Positions 10,161-33,401 of a DNA stretch of 64,000 nt are shown here, piece after piece. The DNA is taken from assembly GCA_037042915.1 (NCBI GenBank), contig CM073193.1:6138001-6202000 (forward strand), given 5' to 3'. A model generated the notes under the pieces. The model saw nothing but the letters and a program-made list of their open reading frames with translations. It was not told the origin of the DNA and did no database searches. The translations under genes and the position numbers were made by a program. The DNA is from Auricularia sp. M13. Lineage: Eukaryota > Basidiomycota > Agaricomycetes > Auriculariales > Auriculariaceae. Position 1 is the stretch's first letter. Each line of letters opens with the position of its first letter.

Positions 10161-10229
10161 GGGACTTTCGCTTAAGCGATTGCCGCACTTTGTGCAACGC
10201 ATCGGTTAAGCGATTCCCGCACTTTGGCA
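10161..10229 (+). repeat. Left inverted terminal repeat
   Basis: About 69 bases matching the reverse complement of 33331-33401 with a few substitutions and one T-run length difference. Within it the block AAGCGAT-nn-CCGCACTTTG occurs twice in tandem (about 10174-10192 and 10208-10226), so each terminus already contains two copies of a likely transposase-binding unit. Confidence 0.9.
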
Positions 10230-10284
10230 CGTTTTTGAAAAGTAAGTAAATGTAATCCGAGTGTAGATAGAGACACGTTACTAC

Positions 10285-10545
10285 AGTATAAATCGCTGGG
10301 CATCGCTGAGGACAGCGTTTTGGGCCGCTTGTGATCGCTGGGTTTCGGTTGACATCGCTTCGCATCGCTGAGCTACGGAATCAGCACGGATAGAACATGA
10401 GGATATTCGGTCGAAATCGGTGGGCATCGGTGGAAAGCGGCGTGTAGGGAAAGCCGGTGCGTTCACCATCGCTTGTGATCGCTGTACCACAAAATCGCTG
10501 AAAATCGGTGAAGATCGGTAGACATCGCTAGTAATCGCTAAATAT
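10285..10545. repeat. Left subterminal ATCGCT repeat field
   Basis: Degenerate, closely spaced ATCGCT/ATCGGT words (for example GGCATCGCTGAG, TGATCGCTGGG, GACATCGCTTCG, TCGGTGGGCATCGGTGG). They are the inverted counterpart of the AGCGAT words near the right end. Such dense short repeats next to the termini are typical transposase-binding regions of large DNA transposons. Confidence 0.8.
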
Positions 10546-10607
10546 CCCTGCTAACTACACCGACCGTCCGCTCGCATATTACATTAAAATATAAATAGCC
10601 TCTGATT

Positions 10608-13600
10608 TCAAGCCGAAACGCTATCTTTGTTTACGGAGTACACTGCATAGATAATATGAGCTTGTACGCATGCTGAGGGCTGAGCATACACTCACGGTCA
10701 GAGTCGAACTCATTCCACCCTTCGGCTACCTTGAACTGAGCACAGGCTGTAGCTCTCAGCCGCTTGACCTCCTCCAACATAGCGCCATAAAATGACGCCT
10801 TCTGGAAGGCATAGGCTGCAGCCCCTTGTGCAATTTGCCGGCTACGCAGCTCATCGGCGGGCTGACGCTGCCACCGCGGAACATCGGGGCCGTAGTTTGC
10901 TGCCGCTGCTGCGGCAGTATGCTCCATCTCCTCCGCTTTTCGCCCTGCTGGTTACCGATGGCCTGCCAAATAGAACGCATTCGAGAAAAGTGCCGTTCGC
11001 TGCGCCCAAATTCTGCGCCCACAATCGACATCTGTTCAGACCAGCGCCGATAATGGCCTTGCAAACGAAAATACCGGACGCGGTTGTCTATGCAGTATGT
11101 TAATTTTGCAAAGACAACTCTGTCCGTTGCACGCACCGTCATCTGTCAGAAGAGCAAGTTTGGTTTTCTCCTGCTTGGAAACAAGCCCAACGTCCAGTTC
11201 CCCTCGCCAAAACCAAGCAACATCTCCCTTGGACTTGCCAACATTCAGTGGCTGAGGTTTGTCGACGGGTGCGTGAGCGCGCAGCATAGTAGCGTCCAGA
11301 TCCTGATAGGTTGTGTCCTCCCGGCTCAGACCCAAGGCCCTGAGCGCTTAGATGCTCCGAATAGATATTGACAAAGACATTTTGCTTGGACTTCATTTTT
11401 TTTAGGTATGCTCTCGCTCTCGTCTTACCACCCGTGCTGTCCACCTGATCTCGAGCTTCATCAGCATTGGAGCCGAAAAGTCGAATGCTGAATCGCAGGT
11501 TCGAGAGCGTGCCCTCAGCATGTGCCTTTCGAAGCTCTCGCTCCATGTGGACCAAGCGATCTGGCACGCCATTCTCCTTCCGCTCCTCCTCGCTGAACCA
11601 GGAGGGTAGCATCAACGGCACATCCTCAGCGTAACCGGTCTCCTCGAGACTCTCCTCGTCTTCGGAATCACCGGAGTCGATTTCACCCTCCGTAATAGCC
11701 TCGGCAAGGTAAGGCATATGCCTGAGCTGCAGTCGGCGAAAGCTGGCTATGCGCTCGCTCAAGTTACGACGCTTTTGTCTCACACTCTGCTGAGCTTCCT
11801 TGTCCTGCTTATTCTTTCGTGCGTTGGCGGCTTTCCCACGTAGTCGCACTCTGCGCACGTTGAGCTGTAAACAGTAAATTGTGAAAGGCACGTACTGATC
11901 TTCTGCTAACTGCACGCCTTTAGCCATCATGCCCACAACACCGCTCTTACGGATCTGTCCAGGAAGACGCTCCTCCCGTTCAAGCCTTGCGATGACGTCC
12001 TTGTGATTAGGGCCTATCAGTGCGTAAGTGATTGGCTCTTCACAGATTAGCGTTTGAACTTCACGGTTGGCAGGGTCAACACAGTATCGCCCGCGAATAG
12101 TATCGTCCTTGACCACCGCTGTCTCCGTCGGATACTCTGCTTCCCAGGCAGCTATGCGCGCAGGATCAATGGAGCTCGAAAACTCCTCGAATTCTGCCTT
12201 GGACACGGCAATGTGTTTGTGTGCTTCTGCGGCCTGGGAGTAAAGATATTTTGCTTACAAATTTTCTAAGTCCTTGCCAACAGCAAATCGAGCCGCACTC
12301 ACCAAGTCCAACCAGTTTGTTGAAATTCCAGAAATTATGAACGTCGTTGAGGATGTCATGACGATGACCGGCGTTCGCGTCCCGACATATGGCCGCCGCG
12401 AGCTTTGTTTCTGCCCACGGCCGCTCAACCCCTTCTCCGCACGCTCTCCCAGCACCCGGTGTGTACAGAAGATGATACACATATTGACACTTCTCACAAT
12501 GACCCTGTATATGCATTTTGGGTATAACCCACACGAGCTCTTTCGCGATCTGCTGGACGTCCTGTCGGTCGGGGAATTCGTCTCGCAAACGCCGCATGAT
12601 GTTGATGCACAAAGAGCAGGCTCTGTCACTCGACAGCGCGGGGTAAGTCGGTGTCAGGCTTCGGTCCTTGGGCGTATACCCAGCCGTGGTCAATCATATA
12701 ATACCTGAAGACATTAGCATTTTTCAGCCTCGAATCTCTGTGCTCAGACGTACTTTTCGCCCAGCTTCAAGTCTACCATTCCCATCGCCGGGAAGCAGCT
12801 GTGACGTATGCAGCACACAGCAGACAAACCCGAAACCTCTCGATTGCTGAGGTCCTGGATTTTATGCATCTTGTCGTATCCAGGACACGATCCAGCCTCC
12901 TGAGAGTTTATTAGTACTGCTTAGGCATTTGATGAACAAATGGTCATGCCTGCGAAATATCGCTATTTTTGGACGTGTATGCTTCCCAATCTGAGCGTCG
13001 AGGAAGGAAAGCGCATCCATCGAGCAAGGAAGTGTCCCCAGCGTCCCGAAGTTTGACCTTCAAATAAACCTTGAACGATGCGTCTGTACCGTGCCACAGG
13101 ATGAATTTGAACCTTGTGTCGCATGAATACATGAATCCTGGAGGCCTGATCTCTCACCTGTGCTTCTCGTCGTTGGCCAAGTCATGCCAGCCCGGCTGCA
13201 GATTGAACTCTGGCTCTGGACACGCAGGGCAAGCGACGATGACCGAGCCAGGCCAACGATTGGCGGGGAGATGCCCGTCAATTCCGAGAGCCTGACCGCT
13301 TCGAAGCTGCATTTTAAGTACGCGCCAAAAGTGTCCGGCTCGAAGAAATGCATGGTAGCCTTTCTCTCGGGGTATGAGCCAAAAAATAATATCCTGAAGA
13401 TGTAAACTCACTCTCTCCTTGCCGCGTTTATTTTTCTGACACACGGCCTGCCAGTAGTCCCAAGTTGATTTTTTGCTCTGGAGCGACTCCAAGTGCCAAT
13501 GCATCATAAGCTCGAATGTATAGCCGACGGTCGGTCGACTGAACGTGCTGGGGAAGATGCGTGCCCGGATGAGCTGATGCACCAGACTGGGCAGCTCCTG

Positions 13601-14423
13601 TCGAGGGCCCCGACACCGGCAGAGGACGAAGTTCAAGGTGTGATGACCATTCAGGTGTACCACGGTCATGGAGTGAGTGTAACGATGCTCAGGCAAGATT
13701 TCAGGGCAGGCTTGAACTTCCATCAACGTTGTCGGGCACGCAGCGCCGTTGTGTCCAAGATGTACCTTGAATTCTGGGTGATCGCCTAGCGCGGCGGGCT
13801 CGAACGACGACCCGTTCCATTTCTCGATGGCGTGCAGCGGCAGACTCCCATGGCGCTCAAGGAAGCAGGTATGACAGTGGACGGAGGATCCAAAACAGTC
13901 AAGGCATCGATAAAGACGACGTCCATGCTCTTCGCAGTCGCAGACTTTGCCAACATCCTCGTTCCACTCCAAGCTCATCATACCGTCCAGCAACTGTGCT
14001 CGCGCCCTTTCGAATTCTTTGTTGAATTCCGATGTAGTCTATACACTCAGTGTCAGTAAAAGTATCACGCAAGTCGAAAGCACAGCGTACCTTGCCATGG
14101 GTTGTACCCACGCCCCTGGCCCGCCCTGTGGTTTGCCGGTGAGGCGCTGAGCTAGGAGCTGGCTGCAAGGCTGTATCATCGCCCGCTGGTAACGGACCCT
14201 CCCTGGCACTGTACTCTATACTATGTACATACACTTCGGCAGCCTTGCGTTTCTTGGGACTCGTGACACTCGAAAGATGGCAAAGCGATCTTAAAGTACG
14301 GGTAGGGGAGTGAACGGAAGTTACATCGACAGACGTAGAAGAGCTAGCAGTAGTTTGGACTGTATAGACAGTTTGGGTGAGCTCTGGCGCTCGGATACGG
14401 GGACGCTTGCTGCGAGGCGGCAT
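10608..14423 (-). CDS. KDZ transposase with CxC2 cysteine cluster
   Basis: Intron-rich gene read leftward from the ATG at 14423 (MPPRSKRPRI) to the TGA at 10610-10608. Exon 1 is 14423-14091. Next comes a CxC2 cluster (VCDCEEHGRRLYRCLDC, HCHTC, then the His/Cys run LGHNGAACP). The transposase core shows GLSAVCCIRHSCF, LGEKYYMIDHGW (first catalytic Asp), SSDRACSLCINIMRRLRDEF, IPKMHIQGHC and GAGRACGEGVERPWAE (catalytic Glu). A long charged helical tail follows. At least ten short introns are implied, one with a weak GTCCAA donor near 11390. Between the YMIDHGW exon and SSDRAC the frame changes next to a run of four G (12640-12643 on the plus strand) with no good intron. This is either a one-base lesion, an assembly error or an intron I missed. 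The enzyme should cut and join at the element's repeats. Confidence 0.88.
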
Positions 14424-14662
14424 CCTGTAAAAACACAGCAAGAGCCGAAGTCCTGGTCACGATGTAATACACCACCGAATGGCGGCGCATATAATCTACA
14501 CCCACGAATGCGGATGCAGCAAGCGTGCTGGCGGCAACAGAGCCTAGCAGGCCGCAGGTACGGCGAGTACGAAAGGGAAGTCCGGACTTTGAATTCTCTC
14601 GGAAACACACGGCCCATCGGCCGAGATTGTAAAAACCAGAACATTGTTTTATTTTTTCCAGC

Positions 14663-16893
14663 CTAGCTATCCTTGTAATCTACCCCTGTAGTGCATACTC
14701 TCTTGGGCCTTTGAGGTCCATTACCTGCGGTTGCAGGTGCTGTATTTTTGACGGTGCGAGCGATGTTCCTCGCCGGTGCCGGTTCACGTGGCCGAGCCGG
14801 TACCTTCTGCGCACGTGAGCGCATCGTACGATCGGAAGTTTGGGCATCTGCGGCTCTCATCCGTTTCAACGGCGCATCGCTGCCATCCTTGACCTTGCGC
14901 CTGGTGAAGACTTTAAAATCACTGGGTGTACTGCCAGAAAATACATACTTTTTTCCGTTTCCCACAGCGGTTGATTCGGCGGGTATGGGAGTGAGAGGCG
15001 ATTCCGGGTCTACGGTGCGGAAAGGGCTGCCGCCGGGTGTGCTGGGGAACGCAGTTGGCGTCGGAAGCTGCAGCCGATCAACGATTATGTTAAACTTAGA
15101 ACAACCCGACTTACCACTTGCGATCCGAACCTCGAGCGCACAGGCGTCTGGTGCTGCTCCACCGTCTGCTGCTCCCGGGGCTCCAGCATCTGCCTGTTCG
15201 ACGATATGGGCGTCTGTTGCTCCGGCGGTTGCGGTGTCAGCTGCTCCGCGGGCTTGGGCGTCTGCTGCTCCGGCGGCTGCGGTGTCTGCTGAAGCAGCGG
15301 CACCATCTGCACATCCCGCGGTTTGGGCGTTAACTCCGGCGGCTCGGGCGTCTGCTGGGGCGGCGGCTCGGGCGTCTGCTGCTCCGGCGGCGGCTGAGGC
15401 ATCTGCTGCTCCGGCGGCTCAGGCGTCTGCTCCGGCGGTGGCTCAGGCGTCTGCTGAAGCAGCGGCACCGTCTGCACATCTGGCGGTCTGGGCGTTTGCT
15501 CCGGCGGCACCGGAGTCTGCGGGAGCAGCAGCGCCTGCTGGTCCGGCGGTTTGGGTGTCTGCTCAATTGAGCTTGAGCCTGTATATTCTCGGCGTGAGAT
15601 GAGATGCCAAAGCAACCCGTACTGAACTTACCGCGAGTAGCGCGCACTGCTACTTTGGACAGTCGCTTGACTTCAGCTGCGTGAATACCTACAAAGATGT
15701 CAGCGACCACTTCCACCTGCAAGAAATACCATACCTGGTAAAACCCGCATGCAGTAATCTCTTAGAGCTTCATCGTGCCGGTTATGCTCTGTGCTCTTGA
15801 GCCACTCGCCAACCTTGCCTTTCCCGCCTATACCCTGTAGTCTGTTCCCATGTAAGACATAATAGAAAGTATTTAGAGTACAAACGTACGACTTGATTAC
15901 GACGTTGCCGGTTGTAGGATCGAGTTGCGCGAGCTGGAAAACGGCCATGTTCGTGGAGCGATAAGAGAGCTTTCCCATAAGATCTGCGATTTTTTGGATA
16001 AGCTCTTGCTCGATCCTAATAATCGAATTAGACAGGGAAATGCATTGACTCGATGCTTACACTTCCTCCTGCGCCTCCAAGTTGGCGGGCGAACTTCGCT
16101 CGGAGGACAGTTCCTGTGCGGCCCCCGCATAGCGCATCTTCTCCTCCGTGTCCAACAGCGCCCATCGGTCAGAAAGAACTCGATTTCGCACCGGAATCCG
16201 CTCCTGGTTCCAATCCGCAGCGTCAAACTCTGCGGCGAGCCTCTCGGCAATTTCACGGTCCAATTCGGCCTTGATCATCCGCGCATATAGCTCTCTTGCG
16301 CTATCCGCCCGACCTTTATCAGCCGTCGTTGGCGGCCGAGACTGACCCGCCTGAAGGGCACCCTCGGGTGTTGCTGCAGTGCTGGCCCCGTTAGCACGGA
16401 CGACGAGGGTAAAGAATTTAGAAAATACTCACCGCGTGTTCTTGTTCGACGCATTGAGCGACTGTTCGTAAATCTTGATCCACACGCAGTCTGCGAGTGA
16501 GTTGTTACGAACGTCCTGCCGAAATGCCTTACGCAGCTGTCAGCTAGGAGCATAAAAGCAAGCAAACAGTTTTACCGTGCGAGCGTCTTGCGACTTGCAG
16601 TCCGCGTCATAAAGCTCAGGAAATTTGTCCACAACGTGCAGCCCGTGCGCCTCCCAGATGGGAATGATGTGCTGGGAAGTGTATATGCGTACTTCTGCTT
16701 TAGATGCACCTGAGCGCTTCAACTGGTATAACTTGTACAACTCAGGCTTGAGCTCTTTCATGCATGCTGGGGTGACGACGAGATTGGGATCGCCGACCGT
16801 CCAGATAGGCCGCTGTACGTGACGCTTGCCCCTGCGCTTTGGCTGAGTCGACGAGGGCGGATCATCGGGTCCACCACCACCTGGTGGCGACAT
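14663..16893 (-). CDS. Transposon cargo protein with TPxPP repeats, function unknown
   Basis: Starts at the ATG at 16893 (MSPPGGGGPDD) and ends at the TAG at 14663, with about eight GT-AG introns whose phases agree. The N-terminal part is globular (PIWTVGDPNLVV, YKLYQLKRSGAS, IIPIWEAHGLHVVDKFPELY). A charged helical segment follows whose end (WALLDTEEKMRYAGAAQ) faintly recalls the last helix of an HMG box. The middle (plus-strand 15110-15560) is about 20 degenerate QQTPEPPE units. The C-terminus is basic and ends CTTGVDYKDS. The frame stays clean through the repeats, so this gene looks intact. It is transcribed the same way as the transposase and begins about 2.2 kb upstream of it, which suggests a role linked to the element. 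I know no function. Confidence 0.7.
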
Positions 16894-17235
16894 CTGAGCA
16901 CTCCACAGAACACCACGCCGGGCGCATGCATTTATGATATCCTGTGAAACAATCGTCCCCGCATAATCCATTGACCGAGTCAACCGGCATTTAGCATTCA
17001 GCCGCACGGTCCATCGAGATGATAACGTACATACCTCACCGATTCCCACGGGCTTCGCAGTTGATTTGGCAGAGAAGCACGCAAATCCTGTTCCTATGAT
17101 TGTGTAGTAAGCTACGTCGGCATTTGATTTCGCTTAGGACTCAGGCCCACTGTGCCGCTTAACATATTGATGTTTCAGGTTGCCTCAGAAGAACTGCAAT
17201 TGATGGATGCTACGGGGAGAATATCTCTCTATCTT

Positions 17236-18527
17236 TTACGTTCGAACGACCAGCTTCATCTGCACATCTGTGACCTCCGTCACCTCACCCCCCTCGGCCT
17301 CATCATAGAGATCGTACTGTAGAGCCACGTCGGGACCGTCGTTGATGCAGTCGTCAGCGATATCTTCGATGCCAAGGATGGTGCGGGCTTCGTCGGAGAA
17401 GTCCTTGAGATAGAATCGGCAGTCGGCCACCCTGAGCCGACGGCGAGGTAGCTCCACAACACACCAATCCGCCTCGCCATTCGCGCCCTCGGCATCCACG
17501 TCCTGGATCTGTGAATAATCAGGCAACCATGAAGGGATAGGGGGAAAAATGCACATACAAAGTTGCGAGACTGGAAGACGCACTGCACGTGAGCGAAGAC
17601 GTTGCCGAGGGTGTCCCAATCTCGATTGTAGTCGAGCTCCTCCGGTCGAAGATCGTTGACATGGCGCCCGAGCTCCGCGACGTCGACGTACACCACAAGC
17701 CGTAGCACCGCGGGTGTGGGTGTTCAACTCCTCGTACATAGCATGCCCTTTGTAGAATGCGAGATCCCCAGCAAAAGGAGGGTCGTCCTCTTCGTAGGCG
17801 TCGTTGTAGTAGATACGGTCCAGGGTAATGTTGTCGAGGCGAAGGTCATGCATGGTGCGATCACTGGTGGCGAGCTCGTGGTAGTAGGTGAACCTGCGAT
17901 GGCTGGCACGCGTGCACATTGTGATGGAGTAGGTTTTGTGGCCAGCTGGGCGGACTGGGCTTCCCTGGAGGGAAGGATGAGCTGAACGTCGTCGACAGCA
18001 GGGACGGAGTACGCACCACCCAGACATGAGCGCAGGATACAAGTAGCTTGATGCGGTGCTCAACTTGCAAATCCTGCACGTCAAGTTCCTGGAGAGGTTT
18101 GGCGGGCGCTCCGGGTACATGGCTTGGCCACGGGCAGTATGGGTGCGGAGGCGGCAGCGGACGCGAAAGATGGCACAGCACTCGCAGCACAACATCAATG
18201 AGCAGTGAACGTCGCTGCGACGGCGGCAGATCAGGCAACATTCTGGGTTGTCGAGGGCGAGTTGGACTTCGTTTGGGGTGCGGGCGTGTGCAAAGCTGAA
18301 CGGAATGACGGTGCGAGCAGACGAGAGCTGGTAGATTATACCGTGCTCCTTGCACTACACGGCGACAGTGAGCATGTTGGGTCACACACGAGCGTCGCTG
18401 CACATACCGCGGCGACCTTCATCGGCGTTGTACCACGGTACACTCGGTACCAGCGTGCAGCATGGTCGCATTCCGTCACCGGGCAGAGGACGTCGGGCTC
18501 GTCGCTGATGATGGAAGGGAGCGGCAT
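17236..18527 (-). CDS. Transposon cargo protein, Cys-rich N-terminus, function unknown
   Basis: ATG at 18527 (MPLPSIISDEPDVLCPVTEC); stop at 17236. Exons join through GT-AG introns after GTTPMKVAA and after SRNF. The N-terminal half has several Cys pairs (LCPVTEC, PECCLICRRRSDVHC, LCCECCAIFRVRC, LTCRICKL), consistent with one or more zinc-binding modules. A conserved-looking acidic region follows (RIYYNDAYEEDDPPFAGDLA) and then a C-terminal part ending VQMKLVVRT. Between the segment ending AMYEEL (about 17740) and the one starting PTPAVLRLVVYVDV the frame shifts by one base without room for an intron. The gene is therefore either damaged or affected by an assembly indel. It points away from the cargo gene at 18900, with 372 bases between them. 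Confidence 0.6.
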
Positions 18528-18899
18528 GTTGCACGTTCGCGGGCCAGCGGGGTGGGGAATGACTGTGTGGGTGCCAGAACGCAGACGCCATATAAGTCAA
18601 TGGGGGCTTGCGCGAGGTCACGCTGGGGCTGGGTCACGTCGAGAGGTCAAAATGCGCGCATCACGGCAGGTCCCGGTGGGATCATGAACCTGACCGAAGT
18701 CCGTTGAATACAGATATCGCTTAAGGACCAGGTTGCGTCGATCCCTTGAGATGGGAGATTCTCTCACGTTTCAGTGGGTAATGTAATGAACCTCGGGGTC
18801 CTAGCACAGCGTACAGGTCAATCGGGCGAGGTCTTGGGCTCATAATTATCAAACACTCACCAGCACACCGCGTGCGCTGCGAAGCCAAGTCTTCCCACC
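18528..18899. promoter_or_regulatory. Presumed bidirectional promoter between two cargo genes
   Basis: 372 bases separate divergent start codons at 18527 (minus) and 18900 (plus). No gene is seen inside. I find no clear TATA box. Shared regulation of the two genes is an inference from layout only. Confidence 0.35.
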
Positions 18900-19956
18900 A
18901 TGCCGCTGGTCACAGTACCTCGCCATGTCCCCAGAGGTATACCTCGAGCCGCTGTGTGCATAGAGCTTGCTTGTCGAGAGCGCCATCCGACCATCGTGGC
19001 CACCGTCGACAGCTACCCAGCATACGCCGGGCATGCTATAGTAATTGTGAGCACTATGCATGCCCGTGGTACCAGCTCGCAGCTCACCTGCGTTAGTGTC
19101 CTCGCTACGGCACCATATGCGCAGCATGGAACCTTCAGACATTCGGCTCTGTCGACCCGCGCCGTATGCACCCGGTCGTACAGGGTCCACCGCCACGCAT
19201 CATCTGCGATGGCGCAGGCTGCCGCCGTCGACGGCCGCACCTGAAGCCCGGCAATCGTCGGTGTCGCCTGGGACAGTGTATCCATTGCTGCCAGCTCGCT
19301 GTCTGCCCTGCAACGGGCCATGGTGTGCGCCGCCCGCCGGCATCCAACACGCCAACCACTGAGCCCGTCGTGATCGAGATCGTGCTGTCGGTGGATGCAG
19401 AACAAGGGTCAGAGGTATGCAACCCGTTGCAGACACCCGCGCCGCAGGCTTACGTTTGTAGGCGCAGACGATGACAGTGCGATACCCCGTACACCACAGC
19501 TCGTTCAGCCTGCGCACCGTCGTCTCCGTCCACACCGTCGGCCTTCAGCTGCACAATGTTGTTCTCAGTACTATGGAGGTCTTCGACGCGGGCGTAGACG
19601 ACTGGCTCGCGGTCAGCATGGACGATATCATACCCTTGCGCGGAGCCCGTACTGTCTTGCTGCGCGCTGTGCGCCGGCTGGCGTTCCCGCTCGTGTACAC
19701 CGTGGACATGGCAGATGGTATGGATGCCTGCTGCAAGCGTCAGCCGCAGCAGACACTAAAACAGGCCTTCCTCGCTGCGTTTCCGCGCTGTGATTGGTCC
19801 CCTGTGCTGTATACGGCGGCAGCACGCACCTGGAAGTATGCACCGCCCGAGGTGAAGCAGGCGTTTGTTATAGCTGGGCGCTGCCCGGATGGACTTTGGA
19901 TTCAGCTGGCGACTCAGGTCGATGCGCCCCTGCCTGATGTCATAGCCATTGATTAG
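18900..19956 (+). CDS. Transposon cargo protein with Cys/His cluster, function unknown
   Basis: Three exons fit well: 18900-19046, 19097-19414 and 19462-19956, giving about 319 residues with all junctions in phase 0. The middle exon encodes a compact Cys/His cluster (IICDGAGCRRRRPHLKPG, then C-x-LGQCIHCCQLAVCPATGHG), which looks like a zinc-binding module, possibly for DNA. The C-terminal exon is globular and free of low complexity (FDAGVDDWLAVSMDDIIPL, AFLAAFPRCDWSPVLYTAA). The start at 18900 is the least certain part, because the upstream exon is short and its frame was chosen by phase. The gene is uninterrupted. I recognise no characterised family and would not assign a function beyond possible nucleic-acid binding. 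Confidence 0.62.
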
Positions 19957-20020
19957 ATTAGATAGTATGACAGCATGTGATTGCTAGTAAAGTACCTTAG
20001 TGCGCCCCTATACTTGAAGG

Positions 20021-20028: not shown

Positions 20029-20064
20029 CCCGCGCACAGCGGGCTACGCTAGCATTAGCCCTTG

Positions 20065-20865
20065 TCCTCCTGCACTTGAGCCCGGCCCCGAGCTTGTGCA
20101 CTGCTGATTCATACGTCATTTCATCATGCCGCCGTCCTCGCACCCGCACGCGCACCGCTGCACTTGAGCCCGCTCCCGAGCTTGCGCACCATGCACCCCC
20201 TTTCCCGTGCTCGCACACTGCCTACGCACTTGAGCCCGCACCCGAGCTCGTGCACCCCCGTCGCTGTAGCCCGCTCCCGAGCTCGCGGTACGCACTTGAG
20301 CCCGCGCCCGAGCTAGTGCACCCGAGTCGCTGTAGCCCGTTCCCGAGCTCGCGCACTTCCCACGCACTTGAGCCCGCACCCGAGCTCGTGCACCCCCGTC
20401 GCTGTAGCCCGCTCCCGAGCTCGCGCCACGCACGCACTGAGCCCGCGCCCGAGCTCGTGCACCCGAGTCGCTGTAGCCCGTTCCCGAGCTCGCGCACTTC
20501 CCACGCACTTGAGCCCGCACCCGAGCTCGTGCACCCCCGTCGCTGTGGCCCGCGCCCGAGCTCGCGCCACACACTTGAGCCCGCGCCCGAGCTCGCGCCA
20601 CACACTTGAGCCCGCGCCCGAGCTCGTGCACCCGAGTCGCTGAAGCTCGTCCCCGAGCTCGCGCGCTTCCCACGCACTTGAGCCCGCACCCGAGCTCGTG
20701 CACCCCCGTCGCTGTAGCCCACGCCCGAGCTCGCGCCACACACTTGAGCTCGCGCCCGTCGCTATAGCCCGATTTCAGCTCGCGCACATACCTTGTTGCC
20801 GTAGTCCATTGCTGGGTTCACGCATTGCCCTTGCACTTGAGCCCGCACCCCAGCTTGTGTACCGC
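20065..20865. repeat. CACTTGAGCCCG minisatellite
   Basis: About 800 bases of tandem, higher-order repeat. The basic unit is close to CACTTGAGCCCGCRCCCGAG followed by CTCGTGCACCC. It alternates with GTCGCTGTAGCCCG-type spacers and CGAGCTCGCGCC segments. Neighbouring units differ by a few substitutions. The array is CpG-rich and lacks stop codons in several frames on both strands, which creates long but meaningless open frames (for example 20116-20787 minus). It separates the Cys/His cargo gene from the TET/JBP gene. Confidence 0.9.
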
Positions 20866-21100: not shown

Positions 21101-23350
21101 TCACTCCAACTCTTGGCAGCGCATATATGCCCGCTTTTCCTCGTCCGTCTGCAGCTCGTTCAAACATCTCTCGCCCGCACAACGCCAACGGAACAATCCA
21201 CCGGCGGTGTAGAAAGTCCACGATTGCCGGTACTCGTGTGACTTCAACGGTGCGTTGCCGTGAGTGATGAGCGCTGACATGACGAAGAGGATATCGCCGG
21301 GCGAACTCGACGACGACGTTGGGCTCCTTCATGATGAAGTGACCCGAAGTCTTCGGGTTATATTTGCCCATTGCGATGATGGTGCAAATGCCCTGCTGCA
21401 AGTTCATAGCGTCGCGATGGAAGAGCGTCGTAACCTATACACCGTCAGTCAAGACGGACGTGCACAAAGAAAATATAACTCGCCTGTGGGCGAGATTGAA
21501 GGTCATCGCCGCAAAATAATAGTTGAATGGTTCTTCGTCTTCGTCATCGTCATCGTCGTCCAGGCGGAACGCTTCGTTGAGGTTCAAGTCCTCGTTGAGC
21601 TGACGATACTCTGCCATCACTTCCGGGAACGCGTTGTTGGCAGATGCTAACGACAATCAGCACGCGTATTATGAACCGACATGCACGTACATTGCGCGTA
21701 CTGGACGACCCGGCGCACTTTCTTATCCTTGAGGAAGGCGCCAATGAGTCGACGATTCCTTTCCTGCCGTGCGGTGCACTTGACGTCGCTACCGATGTCC
21801 GACGAAAACGAGTGGGCTGCTAAAGAACTCTCAGCCTCAATGAAGAAGAGGCTACAAACAGAACACACCTTCTGACCACCGCCAAAGGAAGTGCCGACCT
21901 GGATTTTCGAGAAGTTGCCGCGTGTGTTCGTGCTGGGGGAGTTGTCCTCATGGCATATACTGAGCTCTTCCTGCAGACGCTTCAACTCCTGCGCACAATG
22001 ACGCTGCGCATCCAGATAGCCGGGATCTGTGCATGCTGGCGCCTTGACACAGTAGATGCGACCCTTGTTATCTGTCATGATCACGCCCCTGCAAATTTTA
22101 ATCGTGAGCTCAACCAGCGCCAGTGCATTGTACGCGCACACCTTTCGTCTGCAACCACGTATAGAGCGCCCTGCTTCTCCACAAGATCGCGTACCATCGT
22201 CGAAACGTTGGGGTCTAACGTAGAGGGTGTGCGGGCAGACGAAGTGGAGCTTTGAACTTGTTCCTCGCGGAACTTCGACGGCGCGATGAACGAGCTCTTG
22301 CCAGTAACGTGAGACTTAACGTCAATGTTGGACTCGATGCGGACCGCCTCCTTGATCTGTTTTGCAGCATGGGCAGCGTTGGGTCCACCCCGCGCACGTT
22401 GTTTCAATCGGTGACGCCGCGGCGCGCGTCGCGTTGCGCGCATCGGTCTTGACCTTGGTTACCATGGATGTCCCAACTTGCTTCTTCGTAGACACGGATG
22501 ACTCGCCATGCTTCTTCGTAGACTCAGCGGACGATTTGACTTGCTTCTTGCTCTTCATCAGCCGCTGTACCTTGCGTGGACGATGTTCTGGGATAAGAGA
22601 AGTGTAAGAAAGCGACCACAAGCCATGCATGACAAACACACCCTCTTGCAGCTGGGAATCATCGGTTCGACGTGCGTCCAGCACTTGGGCTTTGCGTAGA
22701 GCACCTATCCCACATAGATGAGCTCAGAAATATAAACGACACCAAGAACTCACGTCGCTGATCGTGCCGCACAATCTGCGGCGGTGCCATGCGAATAACG
22801 CGCCCGTCGCCAAGCTTAACATCGCGCCCTAGAGCTCGTCGGCATTATGCTCAAATATATACCGGACAAACATACCACTACCGCGGATAACAGGAACTTG
22901 GTGTTGCAGAGGACGGTGGAGAGCCTTGGTGCGCGCTGACAGCTGGGGGACCAGGACGCACAGCTCCCGGAACGTGGGACTTGAGGTAGCTGTACGCGGG
23001 GAAGAGATCAACACATGGCGCGGTGTCAGATGAAATGCATACCGCGCGGAGCACGCACGGTGGGCGCTGGCGCGCCGGACGTGTAACGATCGCCTACAAG
23101 ACCAGAGTTAACGGTAGCGAGGGATGCAGCATATATGCTGACCTTTGCTCCCCGAGACAAGCGTCACACCAGCTGTGGGTGCGAAGTCAGCGCTGTTCAG
23201 CGGATGAAGAGACGGATGAAGAGATGGACTCACCCTTGCGCTTGAGGCGCACAGGCTCCTCGCGACCGTCTGAGCTCTCCGAGCCCGACGAGTCTGACGG
23301 CTCGTACTCAGAGCCAGAGTCCTCCTCGAACCCGTATTTTTAGGGGGCAT
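21101..23350 (-). CDS. TET/JBP-type 2-oxoglutarate/Fe(II) dioxygenase
   Basis: Intron-rich gene read leftward; likely ATG at 23350 (MPPKNTG), TGA at 21103-21101. The N-terminal exons encode an acidic Ser-rich leader and Lys-rich linkers (VKLGDGRVIRMAPPQIV, MKSKKQVKSSAES). The dioxygenase core has GTSFGGGQK, then FNYYFAAMTFNLAHRR, LFHRDAMN (HxD iron ligands), GKYNPKTSGHF, VVVEF, then GDILFVMSALITHGN (distal His), EYRQSW (2-oxoglutarate Arg) and FYTAGGLFRW. This matches the fungal TET/JBP family, which oxidises 5-methylcytosine. Two places change frame with no room for an intron: after MPPKNTG, and between VVEF and GDILF (21296-21304), within the catalytic beta-helix. This copy may therefore be inactive unless these are assembly indels. 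One intron uses a GTTATA donor. The gene diverges from the RING gene at 23987. Confidence 0.85.
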
Positions 23351-23986: not shown

Positions 23987-26073
23987 ATGGAGTCCAAAGC
24001 CTCTCATCGTCGCGGCGCCACAACAGCACGCGCAGCGTCTGCTAAGCCTATTGCTCTCACGGTGATTTGTCTCTGCTATAGCTGTTCAGCAAGCTGACTA
24101 GCTCGTGCAGGTCGCACACGTACGTGCGGCATTACACACTGGCAGCCAGGTATGCTCTTGTCGACTTCACGAACCGCAGTTGATGGACAGTTTTCCAGGC
24201 AGGCGAAGGGCACGGTGTGGCTGCAAATCGCAAGGTACGCGCATCAATATACTGGCGTCGCCGCGGCGAAGTCGTACTTACAATATTTTATAGAACAAGG
24301 CCAAGACGCCACCCGCGGACGTGATCATGATCTCGTCCGACTCTGAGGATGAAGTTCCCACGCAGGCGCATTCGACGTCGGCCACGTCGCGTCGCATCCG
24401 CAAGCCGAGCACCGTCATCGAGATCTCCGATACCGAGGACGAAAAGACAGACGATGGGAAGAGTCCTTGCGACTTCGGGTTCGACTTAATCAACGGCATC
24501 CTGGTTGAAAAAGACGACGTTAGTGCACAGGTCTCCAGCGCTTGACGATTGTACTCACAGCACTACAGGACGACGTCGCGGCGGTCTCGGTGAGCGAGGG
24601 TGCCGCGGTCCACACGCACGCTCGTCTCGAGAAAATGGCTGTCGACGGCGACGCTGCCGTAGCCGCTGAGGCTAACGAGGAGAGCGAGGAGGTTAGGCGA
24701 CACAAAGCTGCATGGCCTTGACACTTACGTTCTCTTTGCAGGAGTTCGATCCCCAGCTTCTCGCGCTGGAAACAATGGTGAGTACAGCATTATAGTTGGT
24801 ATATTTTACTTACGGCCTGTGGTGCAGGAGGTTGACACGCAGCAACACGCGCCGAAGCTAGCGGCACTGCAGCGGGAGTTAGAGAAAGTGACAGCTGATC
24901 TGGCGGCCGAGGTACGTACGCACCGACATGTCGAGACGATCCGCGAGCTAACAACTTGCAGCGCGAGGTCAAAGAGAACAGCCTAGCGTGCTTCTGCGCG
25001 CTGCGGGTGCACAGGTACTATAGGTGAGTTCTATGTTTGTAGCGCCCGCAAAGTGTACTTACTCGAGATGTAGCTTGCGATGCGGACACGGCCCGTTCCA
25101 TCTGAGCTGCCTGCAGCAAGCTCATGCGCAGCACGGCCGCTACCTCTACCGGGCGCCGCAGTGCCCGACATGCCGTGCCACGATACGGCAGAAGCCCGTG
25201 GAGAACTGGAACTTGCGGGAGGCGTGCGAGCACGGCAACTCAGACGCCGACCCGGATGAGGGCTTTGACACAACCTGGCTGGATCGCGTTGTATGGGGTC
25301 GTGCCGCACCGCGTAGAGTACCCAACGACGCGCCAATTCTCGACGAGCTGCCGCTCCCGCTTGGATTCGTACCCGCCGCGGCGGCACCGGACGATCCAGC
25401 TGACCCCGACTATCAGCCCAGCGACGAAGAGCAGTGGGCGGACGAAGGCGATGTCGACATGCTCGAGGACGACGATGATGACGACGACCGTTCAGAGAAC
25501 GGTTGGATGGAGGCGCTGCCGGTGACGCTCGACTATTTCAATCATTTTCCGCGCGACCTCCACCTGGATCCGCCCGTCCCCCACGCGACGGTTGACCTAT
25601 TGACCGGCTGCGCCGATGAGCTCACGTTGTGGACGTACGAGTATCGGGACATACTCGATGATCTATCAGGAGACACGGCTGGTGTGATTGCCAGGCTGGT
25701 CGACGCCATCCGCAACGCTCGACTCGAGCGTCTGGCAGAACATCTTCCCCGATTGGCCTACGGCATGGCGCTCGATTATGGTACCGTGCGCGCCGAGCAG
25801 GACGCCGCCATTCCCGAGCTTGACCGGGCCACGCTTGACCTATTGACGGGCGATCAGCGCGAGCTCGAGCTGACGGTGATGCGCAACGCGTTTGCGCTGG
25901 ACGGTGACGAACCTTTGATGGAAGACAAGGTGGACCAGATCTTGCCCTTCGTCCACCACCGCATTCAGAAACTCCAGCCGTACCTGCCCCTGTTGAATTT
26001 GGACGGCATGCGCGAACTCCCGCCGTATATCCGCCGCGACGCGCACAGCGCGCTCCATATGATCACTGCGTAG
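23987..26073 (+). CDS. Transposon cargo RING-finger protein with coiled coil
   Basis: ATG at 23987 (MESKASHRRGATT); eight or so exons joined by clean GT-AG introns (exon 1 is 23987-24061); TAG at 26073. An N-terminal basic stretch is followed by an acidic segment resembling a SUMO-interacting motif (VIMISSDSEDEV and STVIEISDTEDE). A Gln/Glu/Leu coiled coil comes next (KLAALQRELEKVTADLAAE). A RING finger follows (ACFCALRVHRYYS, LRCGHGPFHLSC, QCPTCRATI). The last exon is about 330 residues, strongly acidic in the middle (DMLEDDDDDDDRSEN), then helical to the end. The first RING pair is C-x-C instead of C-x-x-C, so a standard zinc site is not certain. RING proteins are usually ubiquitin or SUMO ligases, and the two SIM-like motifs would fit a SUMO-targeted ligase. 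That is inference. Confidence 0.78.
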
Positions 26074-27880
26074 TTCGCTATTAGCTATCGGAATATTTTC
26101 AGAATAATTTCATTACCTTGTTGCCTGCCACCGAGCTCAAGCGCACACAAGAGGTCCGCCCGCAAGACCAAGTCCTTGTGCGAGCGGGATGTGGCCGGCC
26201 ATCCATGAGTTACCGAGTTCGCCGGCCAATTGCCGGGCGCTTCGGACTGGCGGGCGCTTCGGACTTGCGGGCGCTTCGGACTCCAGCGATCTCATGTTGG
26301 GCGCTTTGGGCCTGCACTTGCGCGGGCGCTGTATATCGAGACACGGACCGATTTTGCAGCTCGACGGTAATGTTGCATGGGCGCCATGAGAGCTGTTGCA
26401 AAGACCTTGAGCGATTAATACGGAATGTCGATCGACCAACTGCATACAAGTTACGATATTACAACACGTCGTGAGACGGGATGTGGGGCGAGCGACAGCG
26501 GGACGTGGGGCGAGCGACAGGGGGATGCTATGGACGATGTGAGACCGGCAAGGGAAAAAAAAGTATACAACAAACCCACGGTGGGGATGTCCAACAGCTG
26601 AACATTATTTTCGTTAGTGGGGATGGTGCACTTGGGTTGCGGCAACATACCTGTGGCCGATGCCGCACAGAGCTCAGGGAGTAACACGATTTTCAGTAGA
26701 GGAGGCTGCGGCACCATATGAGAACGCATGGACGTGGGCAAGGACATCTCATCAGATTACCTTGAGCGACAAGGGTTTGCGACAGACTGGGCATGATCCA
26801 ACCTGCACAACACGACGACGATAATGAGTCATACTAGATTATACAGGGCGCGGGCGACTGCTACTACAAGGCTACTCATCGAAGAACTGGGCGGCGCAGA
26901 CGCAAGACGCAAAGGCTGTAAGCACGTAGCACGGTCAAAGATGGAGAGACATTCTTACCTTGCAGTCTAGATCGATGACGCCGCCTGTTGCAGCCCAGAG
27001 AAGCACCTGCGAGCAGAGGATGTCGTCAGCAATGCGCGCTGACGCTGCCCCTTATGAGGCACATACCGGGTATCGATTGGCCCGCAACGCCTCATCGAGG
27101 CCGTATAATGAGCCAGGACAACGGGCCAAGGGCACTTGGGACGGCTACCGAATGGCAACCGTCCCAGGTGCTGCGATCGTGGGCGGATGGCCCGCATAGT
27201 CGATAGGGGTCCGCGCACCGCGCGCGGAACGATTGGCCGCTCCCGAATGGGAACGGCCCCAGTGGCGCCCAGACGGGCACCATGGCGCTGCGAGAGTCGA
27301 TGGGGCAGGGCTCGAATGAGCCCTGCCCCGGTGGGTGGTGGGTGCGGCGGCGGGGTGTGGCGGGCGAAGGCCAAGATTGGACAAGTCCGTTTCGGACTCC
27401 GCCCGAATCTCGTCCTCCTCCCGCCAAGTCCCGCCACCGCGCCTACCACCCACCGCGCTCCGACCACCCACCGCGCGCCGACGCGTCAGCCACCACCAGC
27501 TCCCAGTCAGCGTGCGCATTCGTGCGCGCTGACAACCTCTGCGCATTCCCATTCGGGAGTGTGCTACCGTCCACAACGCAGGGCCAGCGCACGCGCCGTC
27601 GACCACAGGCGATCCAGCCAGCCTGCTGCTGCCATTCTCATTCGAGAGTGGTAGTTATCTTGTGCACACGGTCATCGAGGTGAGTCGATGCTGCGTCGCA
27701 CGCCTGATGTCCGTGTCATGCTCACCCGTGCCCCCAGCGGCAAGGAAACGTCCAAATTGCAGAGGACGAGCTTCTCGACAGGCTCAGGTAACTTTGGAAG
27801 CATCTCATCAACTAGAAAATGTGCGTTATTTCTTTATTTTTTGTTGATGGTTTGGACTTGGGTGGAGCGGGCTGGCGCTG
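26074..27880. other. Non-genic GC-rich region inside the transposon
   Basis: No supported gene in 1.8 kb. It holds three near-identical 17-base units around GGGCGCTTCGGACT at about 26236-26282. GTGGGGCGAGCGACAG is directly repeated at about 26484-26523. TCCCGAATGGGA (27241-27252) and its complement TCCCATTCGGGA (27546-27557) form a distant inverted pair, with a perfect hairpin between them. Open frames here carry no domain or codon bias. Confidence 0.5.
27302..27329. repeat. Perfect 12-bp inverted repeat (hairpin)
   Basis: GGGGCAGGGCTC, a four-base GAAT loop, then GAGCCCTGCCCC. The stem is perfect and very GC-rich. No poly-T follows, so it is not an intrinsic terminator. It could be a relic of another short element or a binding site. 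Confidence 0.75.
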
Positions 27881-27884
27881 GCGT

Positions 27885-29060
27885 GCACGGGGCGCGGCCG
27901 GGCGCAGTGCGCGGCCGGGGTGTTCACGGCGCGTTCACAGCACGCAGGCGCGGGCGGGTCGTTCACGCCGCGCGGGCGTGGGCCGGGTTCACAGCGCGCG
28001 AGCGCGGGCGCGGCGTTCACAGCGCGCGGGCGCGTGTGTTCACAAAGCGCGGGCACGGTGGGCGTGTTCACAGCGCGCGGCGCGGGCGTTCACAGCGCGC
28101 GGGCGGGTCGTTCACAGCGCGCGGGCGGGCGTGGGCGGGTCGTTCACGCGCGCGCAGGCGGGCGTGGGCGGGTCGTTCACGGCGCGCAGGCGCGGGCCGG
28201 GTGTTCACAGCGCGTGGGCGCGTGTGTTCACAGAGCGTGGGCACGGTGGGCGCGTTCACAGCGCGCGCGGGGTGTTCATAGCGCGCGGGCGCGGCGGGTC
28301 ATTCACGGCGCGCGCGCGGCGCGGCGTTCACGGCGCGCAGGCGGCGTGGGCGGGTCGTTCACGGCGCGCAGGCGCGGGCCGGGTGTTCACAGCGCGGTGC
28401 ACAGCGCGCGCGCGCGACGGGCCGTTCACAGCGCGCGGTGGGCCGTTGACAGAGCGTGGGCGCGGTGGGCGTGTTCACAGCACGCGGCGGGGCGTTCACG
28501 GCGTGCAGGCGCGGGCGGGTTGTTCGCCGTGCGCGGGCGTGGGCCGGGTTCACAGCGCGCGGCGCGGCGCGGCGTTCACAGCGCGCGGCGCGCGTGCGTT
28601 CGCAGAGCCGGTGTGCCCGTTCACCGCGCGCGGGCGGGTCGTTCACGGCGCGGTGCACAGCGCGCGGCGCGGGCATTCACAGAGCGCGGGCGCGGTGGGC
28701 GCGTTCATGGCGCACGGCGGGCGTTCACGGCGCGCAGGCGCGGGCGGGTGGTTCACTGTGCGCCGGAGCGGGCCGGGTGTTTGCGGCGCGGTGCACAGTG
28801 CGGCGCGCGTTCACGGCGCGCGGTGCACGGCGCGCCACAGCGCGTTCACGGCGCCCAGGCGGGGCGTTCACAGCGCGCCGGCGCGGCGGGGCGATCGCAG
28901 CGTGGTGCAGCACAGCGCCGATGTTCACAACGTGCTCATGGCACTCGACAGCGCTGCGCGATGCACAGGGCGTTGACGGCGGCCGGCCGCTCATGAGGTG
29001 CGGGTGTTTACGGCGGGTGGGCGTTCATGATGCGTGGGCGTTCACGGCGTGCTGCGGGCG
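27885..29060. repeat. CpG-rich GTTCACAGCGCGCGGGCG array
   Basis: About 1.2 kb of irregular tandem repeat. The unit is close to GTTCACAGCGCGCGGGCG, with variable GCGGGC/GTGGGC spacers of about 20-45 bases. GTTCAC recurs dozens of times in one orientation. CpG density is extreme. The array contains few stops in any frame, which explains the overlapping 200-385-residue open frames, none of which looks like a protein. It ends about 250 bases before the large cargo gene. Confidence 0.9.
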
Positions 29061-29313
29061 TGGCGCGTTACGGGTGTGAGTTGCTCGGAGTCGCGTGAGA
29101 CTTGCAGCGCACGCCGAGACATACAGCAAGCGTGAGCCATGCGCAGCGGACTCTGCGCATGCACGATGGGCTTGGATCGCGCACAGGGTGCATGTGGCAT
29201 TCGGGCATGAGTCGCGCACCGCGGCCTCGACTCCGTGCGCACCAGCGGGAACGCTAACCGTACTCCAGCTTGCGCCATCAAGCACCGTCTCAGGCAGCCT
29301 GAGTACCGCCCAA

Positions 29314-32300
29314 GATGACCAGGGTATGTTCGGTCCTGGTTCTCGTATGTATTGCCGCCTAATCTCATCATCCAGAAAGCCTTTGAGCCTGACATATACG
29401 ATAAGCTGGGCATCGACTTGAACTCAAGCCCGCCGCGCAGCCTCAACATGGACGAAGCCACCGCAGGCTGGAGTAGTCCTCCACACGACGTGGACATGGA
29501 ATCCATTGTGCCTGCCTCAACCACGCAAGGTGACGAGATTGACAGGGATGATGGGAGCGTGGGCGCACATGGCGACGATATCAACATGGATGGCATGGGC
29601 GGCAATGAGAATTCAACGGCGCAGCCTGGCCACACCGGTGCTACCACCGACGCCGAAAGCGGTAGACAGGTATGTGCTGTTCAGATCCGGAGCGGACGGC
29701 AAGCAGACTTACAGTCCTGGTAGGAAGGAGGGTGTGCCGACTCTTACTCAGGAAACGCTGCCCTGCCCACCGCCGACACCGAGGTACGAAAGCAGCCTCT
29801 GTCGCTGTAATGAAACTAAATAATGGCATCAGGACCGTCCTGCGTACCATTCGGGCCGAGGAGATACGAAGGAGGTTGTGACAGCACTAAGCCCATCGTG
29901 GCGCCTTCGGCACAGCCAAGAGCCCTGGCCGTGCAAGTTGCAGGCTGTTGCGTTTGACTCGAACGCAAAGCGGTACATCTACTCGTTCTCGGGCGGCGAG
30001 CCCATCCCTGAACTCCCCATCAATGAGTTCCCTCGTCTGCGTACAGATTTTCGGCTGGGTGTGCATGATCCCACGCAGTATCCTCAATACTGGCAGGCTA
30101 CGGCTCCCCCATGGCCTGGATTGAGCGCGTCAAGCTACACCGAGATCTCTATGGCGAGAACATCGTCGGTTACGTCATGCAGCCCGAAGACTGGCTGCCT
30201 GTCGAGGAAGGCGCAAGTTACGGGCGGTTGCGTCCTGAACTGCTGGCACGGCTGCAGGATGCGTTTTACGAGATTCACGCGCTCGTCCTGCCTCTCTTTC
30301 GGACGGCAAAGACTCGTTATCTCCTCCCCAAGACCACCATAAATGATTGTACCCGCTTGCTGTCCGACTTCCAGAGTCTGACGGCGACGTTCCGCGAAAC
30401 AGCTGTGTCCGTCACTCATGTACAGCGCGGGATCGCCGAGCTTCGTGCATTTAGACTCTTCCGGCTGGACGTAAAATATCATGTCGGCGATGAACTTTTT
30501 GTATCGGATCGCATGTTCCAGTGTGTCGGTGTATTCAGTACGGACAGCGCCATGGTGACGCTGCTTCACCGTCTCGGCATACCGGTTTGGTTTGTGTCGA
30601 AGTCGATGCCGGCCAATATGAAGAAGGAGCAGCTTTCCCGCGTGTTCGAGCACTACCGCCGAGTTGAGATGACGCCGCGAGACACGCTGGATACGGAAGG
30701 ACGAGACTGGAGTGGAGTGCTTTATCGGCCACCTACGCCGCCTTGGTATCCAAACGACGACGAGGCAGTGGGTACACCACGGCCGCAGGACGCGGACGAT
30801 GTCGAGGATGAGCGTACCGGCGAGCCTGCAACTCGTTCTGTCTCGCGCGATCGCTCACGTTCACCTATGCGCGGTCGAGCATACACACGAAGTCGGTCGC
30901 CACCAAGGTCGTCGTGGCGGGAGCCTGGGCAGAGCACACAGAGGCGAGAACCTGCGTCTCGTGTGCCATTATATAGGCTGAGGGAGGAGCCTCGACTGCC
31001 AGGTATGTTGGCATGTTTCTTCGAATTCTTGCATGTGCTCACAGCTCTGTTGTAGCGGGTAGCAACTCTCGTCGGCCTCAAGATGCACCAACTAGTTGGT
31101 TGCCAAGAATTGGGAAACTGACCCAGGGCACCAGGCCGCGAACAGCTTCGTTCTTCCGGCGTGGGTGCCGCGACCGCCAGATTGGCTTGCGCACATCGCA
31201 TCGTCCGTCGACAGGTCTCGTACCAGGGAGTATCGGCTTTGCGCACCCGACATCCTGCACCCCGTTCCGCAAGAGCGGTTCCTTCAGCCGTTGCAGTACA
31301 CGCTGCCGCCTTTCCACCTGCTGTTGGCGAAGAAGGAGGACCGCATGGTGTACTTGTTTAAATCCTGGGTTGCCCTCCGCAACTTCTGGCTGCGACGCAT
31401 CATCCGTGAGGGCTTCATCGGTCTCTCGGCTTCGCTGTGGCGGAAGGTCCTCGACGACAAGTATCATGCAACGCGCCAGCATACGGTGTGGGTTGCGGAG
31501 AACCGCAAGAGTCTGGGCATAAAGAGCAGCGACAAGTCTAATGCAGCATTACCCTCGCGTGGCGGCATCACCACCCCTCAGCACACTGCAGCTGGCAAGT
31601 CGACTGTTGTCAGGGATACCGAGATTAGCTCCCTGCTGCTGCCGCCCACCGTCACCGCCGAAGATGGGTCCAGCCTCCCATATACTCGTCCGGCCGAGGT
31701 GGGCGAGGACCTTTTGGTCCACCGCAAGAGAACATTCGCAGAGCCGCAGGGATGGAAGGAGAACATACGACTTGCTGCTGTTTTTTTTGAGCGCACACGA
31801 GCACACATGTATGCTGCAGATATTACGGATCGCCAGCTCTTACTCACCGAGGAGTGGGACGAATTTTGGGACTACGAGTGCCGCCGCATACTCCTGTTCC
31901 GCAGGTCTTCGCGTGTACCAGAGGAGGCGGCCGCAGGACAGGATGTAGAGATTCTGCTCAATGAGAATGCCTTGACCTGGCACCACTCTGTGACAGATGA
32001 GGATGGCCTCGCCCAAGGCTCTCGTGCAATGTGGATGGCGGCAGCGCCCCTTCTCCAGGTGTGTACTACCTTCCTATGGTGTTATTCATCCTTTCCGATT
32101 AATGTCCACAGAGAACTGCGGTGCTGTGTGGTAGTACTGTTCCTGCTCCGCCGGAGACTCCAGCCCAGGGTGCTGCAGCTGCTGAGACGGGTACAAAACC
32201 GCCGCCCGATCCAGTTTATGGCTATGAGGCCGAGCAGCCGAATGGACACGATGCAACAGCCCTCTTCATAGGTCAACATCCTCTATCTGCGGGCGATCTC

Positions 32301-32750
32301 TCCCGGTCCGACGTGCGAGCATTCCTGGTATGGGAAGTGCAGGAAACAGCTTTTCGATTTCAGTTGCGGGACCTTGACACGTACATCCTCAAGTCGATGA
32401 AAATCTGGAACGAGACTGTGCGGCAGGATCGGGAAGGCTTATGGCTCAAATGCTGGGGTGGACAGGACGGCTTTGTACCCTCCGGTCTGCAGCAACCGCC
32501 TCACACCGACCCTAACCCCGAGAACCGCAAGGTCTCGATATATAGCCTGTGGAAGATTGTGCGCGCGTGGCCGAGATGCCGAGAGGTTACTAACCTCCGG
32601 CGCTACACTGCGACTGAGGGTTTGTCGATGGAGAAGTTGCTCGATATCGAGCGCGAGGTCTGGAGCTTCTACGCGCAGAGCTTCCAGGATTACTTTGGGA
32701 TTCTCCCCACTATGCCCACCGTGATGCCCGCCAATCCGTTTGTCTCGTGA
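29314..32750 (+). CDS. Large transposon cargo protein, function unknown
   Basis: ATG at 29314; the first exon is nine bases (MTR) and joins KAFEPDIYDKLGIDLNSS. The protein continues through short introns to a TGA at 32750, about 1,000 residues. Visible parts are an acidic leader, a globular region (WLPVEEGASYGRLRPELLARL, LFRLDVKYHVGDELFV, LLHRLGIPVWFVSKSMP), an Arg/Ser-rich linker (RDRSRSPMRGRAYTRSRSPP), and a second globular region (LQPLQYTLPPFHLLLAKKED, TEEWDEFWDYECRRILLFRR). The C-terminal part ends VMPANPFVS. Two frame changes without evident introns occur, one at a run of five C at 30106-30110 and one near 31080-31125. Proteins of this look are common unnamed genes near transposons in mushrooms (recollection, not a search). 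No function is offered. Confidence 0.62.
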
Positions 32751-32884
32751 TGTAATGTAGATACTTTCCCAAATCCCTTCTCGTAGACTCTGCTTTGGTG
32801 AAACAGCCGTATATGACGCACTGCTGCAACAATGCTAACATGTTCCATGATTTTGCAGCAGTTCATAGTTGCTTGACGCTGGGG

Positions 32885-33275
32885 TAAGCGGCAGTAGGTC
32901 CATGGTCGCCCGCATAGCTTTGCTCAGCGATGCGCAGCGATCCTCAGCGGTGCGGGGGGCTGATCGACTGTATCAGTATTTGCGCATTGTCCAGCGATGC
33001 GCAGCGATCCTCAGCGGTGCGGGGGGCTGATCGACTGTATCAGTATTTGCGCATTGTCCAGCGATGCACAGCGCTTCTCAGCGATGCTCCATGTTAATTC
33101 AGCGATTCCAAGCTGTGTGAGTGCTAACCGACTGTATTCATATTTAAGCGGCCTCAAGCGATGCTCAGCGATTATCAGCGAGGCTCACTGACATGCGAGC
33201 GCTGACCGACTGTGCTCATATTTAAGCGACCTCAAGCGATTCCCAGCGATTCCCAGCGATTCCAAGCGATTTAAA
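32885..33275. repeat. Right subterminal AGCGAT repeat field
   Basis: Dense AGCGAT words (TCAGCGATGC, CAGCGATCC, CAAGCGATTCCCAGCGATTCC), the inverted counterpart of the left subterminal field. It includes a perfect tandem duplication described separately, and a second, diverged pair of about 80-base units around GACCGACTGT-C/A-TTCATATTTAAGCG (about 33120-33250). Confidence 0.85.
32925..33058. repeat. 67-bp perfect tandem duplication
   Basis: Two adjacent copies (32925-32991 and 32992-33058) starting CAGCGATGCGCAGCGATCC and containing TGATCGACTGTATCAG are identical as read. A third, diverging copy starts at 33059. Perfect identity implies a recent duplication inside the subterminal region. Confidence 0.9.
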
Positions 33276-33330
33276 TAAAATTATTAGATAGCTAGTATCA
33301 CTACACTACAGACGGTTGAACACTGAAAAC

Positions 33331-33401
33331 GTGCCAAAGTGCGGCTTTCGCTGAACCGATGCATTGCACAAAGTGCGGGTATCGCTTAAGCGAAAAGTCC
33401 C
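33331..33401 (-). repeat. Right inverted terminal repeat
   Basis: Reverse complement of the left terminus with a few differences. It ends AAGTCCC at 33401. The two CCGCACTTTG blocks are both present (as CAAAGTGCGG here). Confidence 0.9.

Follow-up and report, generated by a model that had tools for sequence, protein, structure and literature searches.

The DNA analyzed here is a 64,000-nucleotide stretch of Auricularia sp. M13 (assembly GCA_037042915.1, contig CM073193.1, positions 6,138,001 to 6,202,000 of the forward strand), called the window below and numbered from its first letter. Our results make it quite probable that positions 10150 to 33411 belong to one DNA transposon, a member of the KDZ group and most likely of the Kyakuja type, whose insertion produced a 7-bp target-site duplication (TSD). 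The element spans 23,262 bp and has the termini 5'-CA..TG-3', both of which are bordered by a 7-bp direct repeat. Its ends are made up as follows:

10143..10149, no strand assigned: left TSD, AGCAGGC
10150..10235, plus strand: left terminal inverted repeat (TIR), 86 bp, beginning with 5'-CA
33326..33411, minus strand: right TIR, 86 bp, ending with TG-3'
33412..33418, no strand assigned: right TSD, AGCAGGC

Counted without gaps from 10150 and 33411, the two TIRs are identical at 71 of 86 positions, and they include the longest inverted-repeat pair between 9000 and 35000 (77 nt, 10159-10235 and 33326-33402). Within the window, a 40-base probe from the repeat matched at least 26 of 40 positions at the two element ends only, and a self-BLAST of the window agrees that the inverted repeat is confined to these two places. 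The preliminary description of this region had set the inverted repeats at 10161 and 33401; the repeats are real, but these positions are not the extreme ends, which lie 10-11 bp further out. We moved the ends to 10150 and 33411 because the duplication, the CA/TG pair and the inverted repeat coincide there.

Such a coincidence was uncommon among random positions. Out of 50,000 random mirrored registers, 2 had a 7-bp duplication together with CA/TG within 60 bp, and 572 had a mirrored 7-bp repeat of any kind; a looser, unmirrored search for such a duplication gave 54 of 20,000. Since TSD and inverted repeat share one register, a single insertion is well supported. The opposite view would be that there is no single element, and that unrelated repeats by chance flank independent genes and insertions. 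Nothing speaks for this directly, beyond the fact that a single copy is seen and that the arrays and genes inside it are of differing kinds, and it is highly improbable in the face of a long inverted repeat whose register the TSD shares, the mirrored motif fields and the internal transposase described below.

The length of the duplication bears on the branch of the KDZ group. If the element belonged to the KDZ branches Zisupton or Dileera instead, its duplication would be the 8-bp AGCAGGCC, and the flanks do have these eight letters in common, so that a duplication of this length is possible. Zisupton elements generate 8-bp TSDs, and TET-positive ones are known from Agaricomycetes (Kojima 2025, PMC12730594); KDZ1 of Cryptococcus combines long TIRs with 8-bp TSDs (PMC12810828). 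For random pairs of 40-bp stretches, a common 8-mer is no rarity (458 of 20,000). We read the duplication as 7 bp because the first seven letters of AGCAGGCC give ends at 10150 and 33411 with CA..TG. With an 8-bp duplication, the ends would be offset by one base from the positions at which the inverted repeat mirrors itself, and the CA/TG pair would be lost; the sole mirrored 8-bp repeat found there sits within the inverted repeat, where that repeat is itself palindromic. Zisupton or Dileera is for these reasons a rather improbable assignment, and the two traits of Kyakuja, a 7-bp TSD and 5'-CA..TG-3' termini, are both present, with 8 bp as the less likely length.

The assignment to the KDZ group itself comes from the transposase gene near the left end:

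10631..13981, minus strand: KDZ transposase gene, 8-exon model, with the KDZ domain at about 12303-13112 and CxC2 in the open reading frame (ORF) 13157-14038

An uninterrupted ORF at 12169-12693 (minus strand) matches the KDZ family PF18758 with 92 bits (E 5.8e-26), and the ORF at 13157-14038 (minus strand) matches CxC2 with an E-value of 1.8e-18. When the pieces are joined, the models reach 107.5-122.8 bits for PF18758 (cutoff 26.6; E 1e-30 and 2.1e-35) and span profile positions 4-217 of 217. CxC2 (PF18803), which lies next to the KDZ domain, scores 67.1 and 68.5 bits (cutoff 27). The transposase with KDZ motifs that had been noticed from the letters is thus borne out, with PF18758 above its cutoff and PF18803 in addition. 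Between two transposase blocks there is an apparent frame change near 12680, and no splice joining both blocks in frame was found there when the frames were inspected by eye. Bridging the break with X gives a KDZ score of 122.8 bits, compared to 109.5 bits for the splice in the stricter gene model. Because no in-frame splice was found and the X bridge scores higher, the transposase gene appears to be frame-broken in this assembly. A permissive gene-finder run, which we set aside, offered an alternative splice over the break via a 12-base exon.

Searches for relatives gave no matches. Two of the transposase pieces, one accessory ORF and the inverted-repeat pattern had no relative in IMG/VR, and a third transposase piece had none among prokaryote genomes; these nulls say little, as the collections are not fungal. 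No Pfam match to a tyrosine recombinase, as in the captains of Starships, was seen among the element pieces and models scanned, which cover a part of the ORFs.

Two fields of a short motif separate the TIRs from the genes, and two tandem arrays are found further inside:

10292..10539, plus strand: left subterminal field, 14 ATCGST motifs, 0 in the other orientation
32926..33270, minus strand: right subterminal field, 13 mirrored ATCGST motifs, 0 in the other orientation
20198..20758, no strand assigned: tandem array, unit of about 72 bp, GC-rich, between the dioxygenase and the Cys-rich gene
27932..28888, no strand assigned: tandem array, unit of about 28 bp, GC-rich, between the RING-like and the right-hand genes

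All 27 motifs follow the mirrored arrangement (27/27), and equal-sized windows elsewhere, taken in 100-bp steps, hold at most 3 motifs per orientation. Pairs spaced by exactly 10 bp number 8 in the left field and 6 in the right field, and for either field none of 20,000 random placements yielded as many. A 67-bp tandem repeat (32925-33087) forms part of the right field, so not all of its motif copies are independent. Both the subterminal fields and the arrays had been proposed earlier and hold up, with 14 and 13 mirrored motifs and the tandem repeats detected. As the motifs are short, mirrored and helically spaced, they resemble binding sites of a transposase, and judged from their sequence they are probably sites of this kind. 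The motif core is also found inside the inverted repeats (10175, 10209 and 33381), in the orientation opposite to the adjoining field.

The second gene of interest is a candidate dioxygenase:

21101..22443, minus strand: TET/JBP-like dioxygenase, C-terminal part, suggested by motifs and a sub-threshold Pfam match; gene start not settled

HRD, THGN and YRQS motifs, labeled by eye, are found in minus-strand frames over this interval, and Tet_JBP (PF12851) matches with 21.7 bits (E 0.00012), below the cutoff of 34.9. A sequence search of the PDB with the dioxygenase gave no match at an E-value of 0.1, and at 10 it gave only two chance matches to acidic stretches and no TET. A looser motif search recovered the HRD site alongside eight other matches. 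There is an apparent frame change near 21303, and as the two flanking TET blocks touch, there is no room for an intron. The AG type of TET/JBP dioxygenases is marked by HxD in place of HxE with a His downstream, and by the positions Gly331 and Asp337 of CcTET; of these, HRD and THGN were read by eye. The TET/JBP dioxygenase of the preliminary description is less firmly supported than the transposase: it has these motifs and a weak PF12851 match, but its score lies below the cutoff and no PDB match accompanies it.

Several points weigh against a TET-positive Kyakuja element that was inserted as described. The evidence comes from one copy, and only half of the outermost 10 positions (5 of 10) are the same at both ends. 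Besides the eighth letter shared by the flanks, the 86-bp TIR is at odds with the two Laccaria families of Kyakuja described by Kojima, which have no TIRs; the absence of TIRs is not known to define the group. The ungapped residue spacing of CcTET, which according to Kojima is conserved in Kyakuja, is absent from the window, and the Tet_JBP score is below threshold as mentioned above; we infer the TET role, as we do the function of the motif fields. Oxidised methylcytosine has been reported in two mushrooms, in which few TET genes were expressed, and weakly, and the oxidised marks were linked to silencing and not to release from it, which speaks against a simple anti-silencing role (PMC8889193).

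The remaining genes of the element are represented by three models from the stricter gene finder:

15010..18527, minus strand: accessory gene model or models, Cys-rich, weakly HMG-like, with Pro/Gln-rich repeats; score 16.3; maybe more than one gene
24327..26073, plus strand: RING-like gene, 6-exon model, 498 aa; score 42.1
30111..32750, plus strand: accessory gene model or models, 3 exons; score 24.6; maybe two genes

The resemblances stay below the family cutoffs, with 17.4 bits for HMG_box_2 in 15010-18527 (cutoff 22.4; 15.9 bits in the joined model) and 22.1 bits for zf-RING_2 in the RING-like gene (cutoff 27.3), and no Pfam family matched the model at 30111-32750. Just upstream of this model, an open frame at 30040-30160 (plus strand) shifts frame at a run of C near 30110; this is possibly a third break, or merely the start of the gene. 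Single-sequence AlphaFold predictions for two of the accessory ORFs were of poor quality (mean pLDDT 40.1 and 32.4). In total, the stricter gene finder gave five models of at least 300 bases in the element, the two others being part of the TET gene (6.8) and the transposase (6.1), whereas reversing the element left a score of 0.8, and 20 shuffled versions did not exceed 2.0; this comparison is partly circular, since the codon table was trained partly on ORFs from the element. Where five other genes had been counted beside the transposase and the dioxygenase, we find three further models, which we estimate to represent three to five genes. The fixed cargo order and the cargo-carrying mobile system of that description are hypotheses, as one copy shows a single order.

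As the transposase and the TET gene both have apparent frame breaks, this copy of the element is probably decayed. The breaks might alternatively be assembly errors in an intact and active element, which we consider unlikely, if less so than a Zisupton or Dileera origin. Both breaks adjoin runs of three G or C, as seen by eye in the frames, the domains and motifs are otherwise retained, and the models that a frameshift-tolerant gene finder built for the transposase and TET contain no shift. There is no CpG loss either, with an observed/expected ratio of 1.12 in the element against 1.20 and 1.12 in the flanks, and the CpG, TpG and CpA ratios of element and flanks give no sign of C-to-T decay or hypermutation. 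Against these stand the higher score of the X bridge over the transposase break, the TET blocks that leave no intron space between them, and the 15 of 86 positions at which the two inverted repeats differ. Outside the element, 1 of 13 models of at least 300 bases received a shift from the tolerant finder, as did 1 of 5 inside it, and with such counts it does not separate decay from assembly error.

Outside the element, the left neighbor (9207-9806, plus strand) is an S1/P1 nuclease (PF02265). The right neighbor at about 34.0 kb (minus strand) has a P450-like heme motif by eye, and its ORF piece 33747-34268 is without a Pfam match. About 7 kb to the right of the transposon, a piece of an Argonaute gene (40527-41651, minus strand) matches PAZ, ArgoL2, ArgoMid and Piwi; that a silencing gene lies next to a transposon may be due to chance. 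Tandem repeats of 27 bp and 81 bp (43052-43330) fall within the gene model 39731-43576.

The arrangement of the element suggests how it may have moved. Movement would be by cut-and-paste, in which the transposase, via CxC2 or another part, would bind the ATCGST motifs that share a helical face close to either end, pair the inverted repeats and cut beside CA/TG. The ends of the element would then be joined to a target cut with a 7-bp stagger. The TET/JBP-like enzyme could oxidise methylcytosine on the element and thereby ease silencing, as proposed by Kojima, and a decayed copy would move only with the help of an intact relative. A copy with clear ends, a duplication and phased fields offers a concrete substrate for the study of end recognition by KDZ transposases, on which no discussion was found in the passages covered. 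KDZ transposons with TET/JBP genes are a natural case of mobile DNA with an enzyme that may undo its own silencing.

A more far-reaching idea, which we put forward only as speculation and hold to be as doubtful as a Zisupton or Dileera origin, is that a KDZ lineage of mushroom-type fungi has turned into a large cargo carrier, whose transposase would assemble on helically phased and mirrored arrays of a 6-bp motif at the two ends and would move a stable accessory set that disarms host silencing. In this reading, the set would consist of TET/JBP, a RING-type ubiquitin ligase, HMG-like and Cys-rich proteins, and one or two unassigned proteins. If true, the lineage would be the basidiomycete counterpart of cargo-carrying giant elements. 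The accessory genes, if they recur in relatives, are candidate anti-silencing or transposition factors. A search of the open-licence literature found no paper in which transposons of agaricomycetes have subterminal repeats and carry cargo genes. Among the papers listed on KDZ elements, the word subterminal appears a single time, in a Pleurotus genome announcement, and within that literature phased fields of the kind seen here may be unreported for KDZ elements.

KDZ elements and their TET/JBP link in mushrooms were reportedly described by Iyer and colleagues in 2014. A single contiguous copy with both termini had been thought possibly undescribed, but this novelty mostly falls, as Kojima has already characterized complete TET-positive transposons, Kyakuja and Zisupton among them, in three fungal lineages with termini and duplications included (Kojima 2025, PMC12730594), and complete, mobile KDZ elements of Cryptococcus are known as well. 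The proposal that TET relieves silencing is, by Kojima's own statement, experimentally unvalidated (PMC12730594). KDZ elements have also been reported from Marasmius oreades, where a supplement gives TIR motifs (PMC8290104), and are listed for Agaricus bisporus (PMC7473861).

The closest likeness is to TET-positive Kyakuja, with which our element shares the KDZ transposase, a TET/JBP-like gene, the 7-bp TSD and the 5'-CA..TG-3' termini, whereas Kyakuja-1_LB and Kyakuja-2_LB of Laccaria differ in having no TIRs (PMC12730594). Accessory genes and subterminal motifs are present here, and the available main text of Kojima has no mention of HMG, RING, subterminal or cargo. TET-positive elements of the sister branches Zisupton and Dileera likewise combine a KDZ transposase with a TET/JBP gene, but have 8-bp TSDs, and the 7-bp TSD of Kyakuja fits this element better. 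Starships resemble it as fungal mobile units with extra genes; however, they belong to the tyrosine-recombinase class and to Pezizomycotina (PMC12134995), while the element here is a KDZ transposon. The KDZ1-3 elements of Cryptococcus, which have been shown to be mobile, are also complete, with long TIRs (139-241 bp) and cysteines clustered next to their KDZ domain (PMC12810828). They differ in size (about 9.2-11 kb compared to 23 kb), in carrying CxC1 where our element has CxC2, and in their TSDs, which are 8 bp for KDZ1 and 4-8 bp for KDZ2 and KDZ3 compared to 7 bp here; no TET gene is mentioned for them in the available text (PMC12810828). Collectively, these comparisons leave the TIR, a size larger than that of the Cryptococcus KDZ elements, the accessory genes and the phased fields as possible variations on known KDZ elements.

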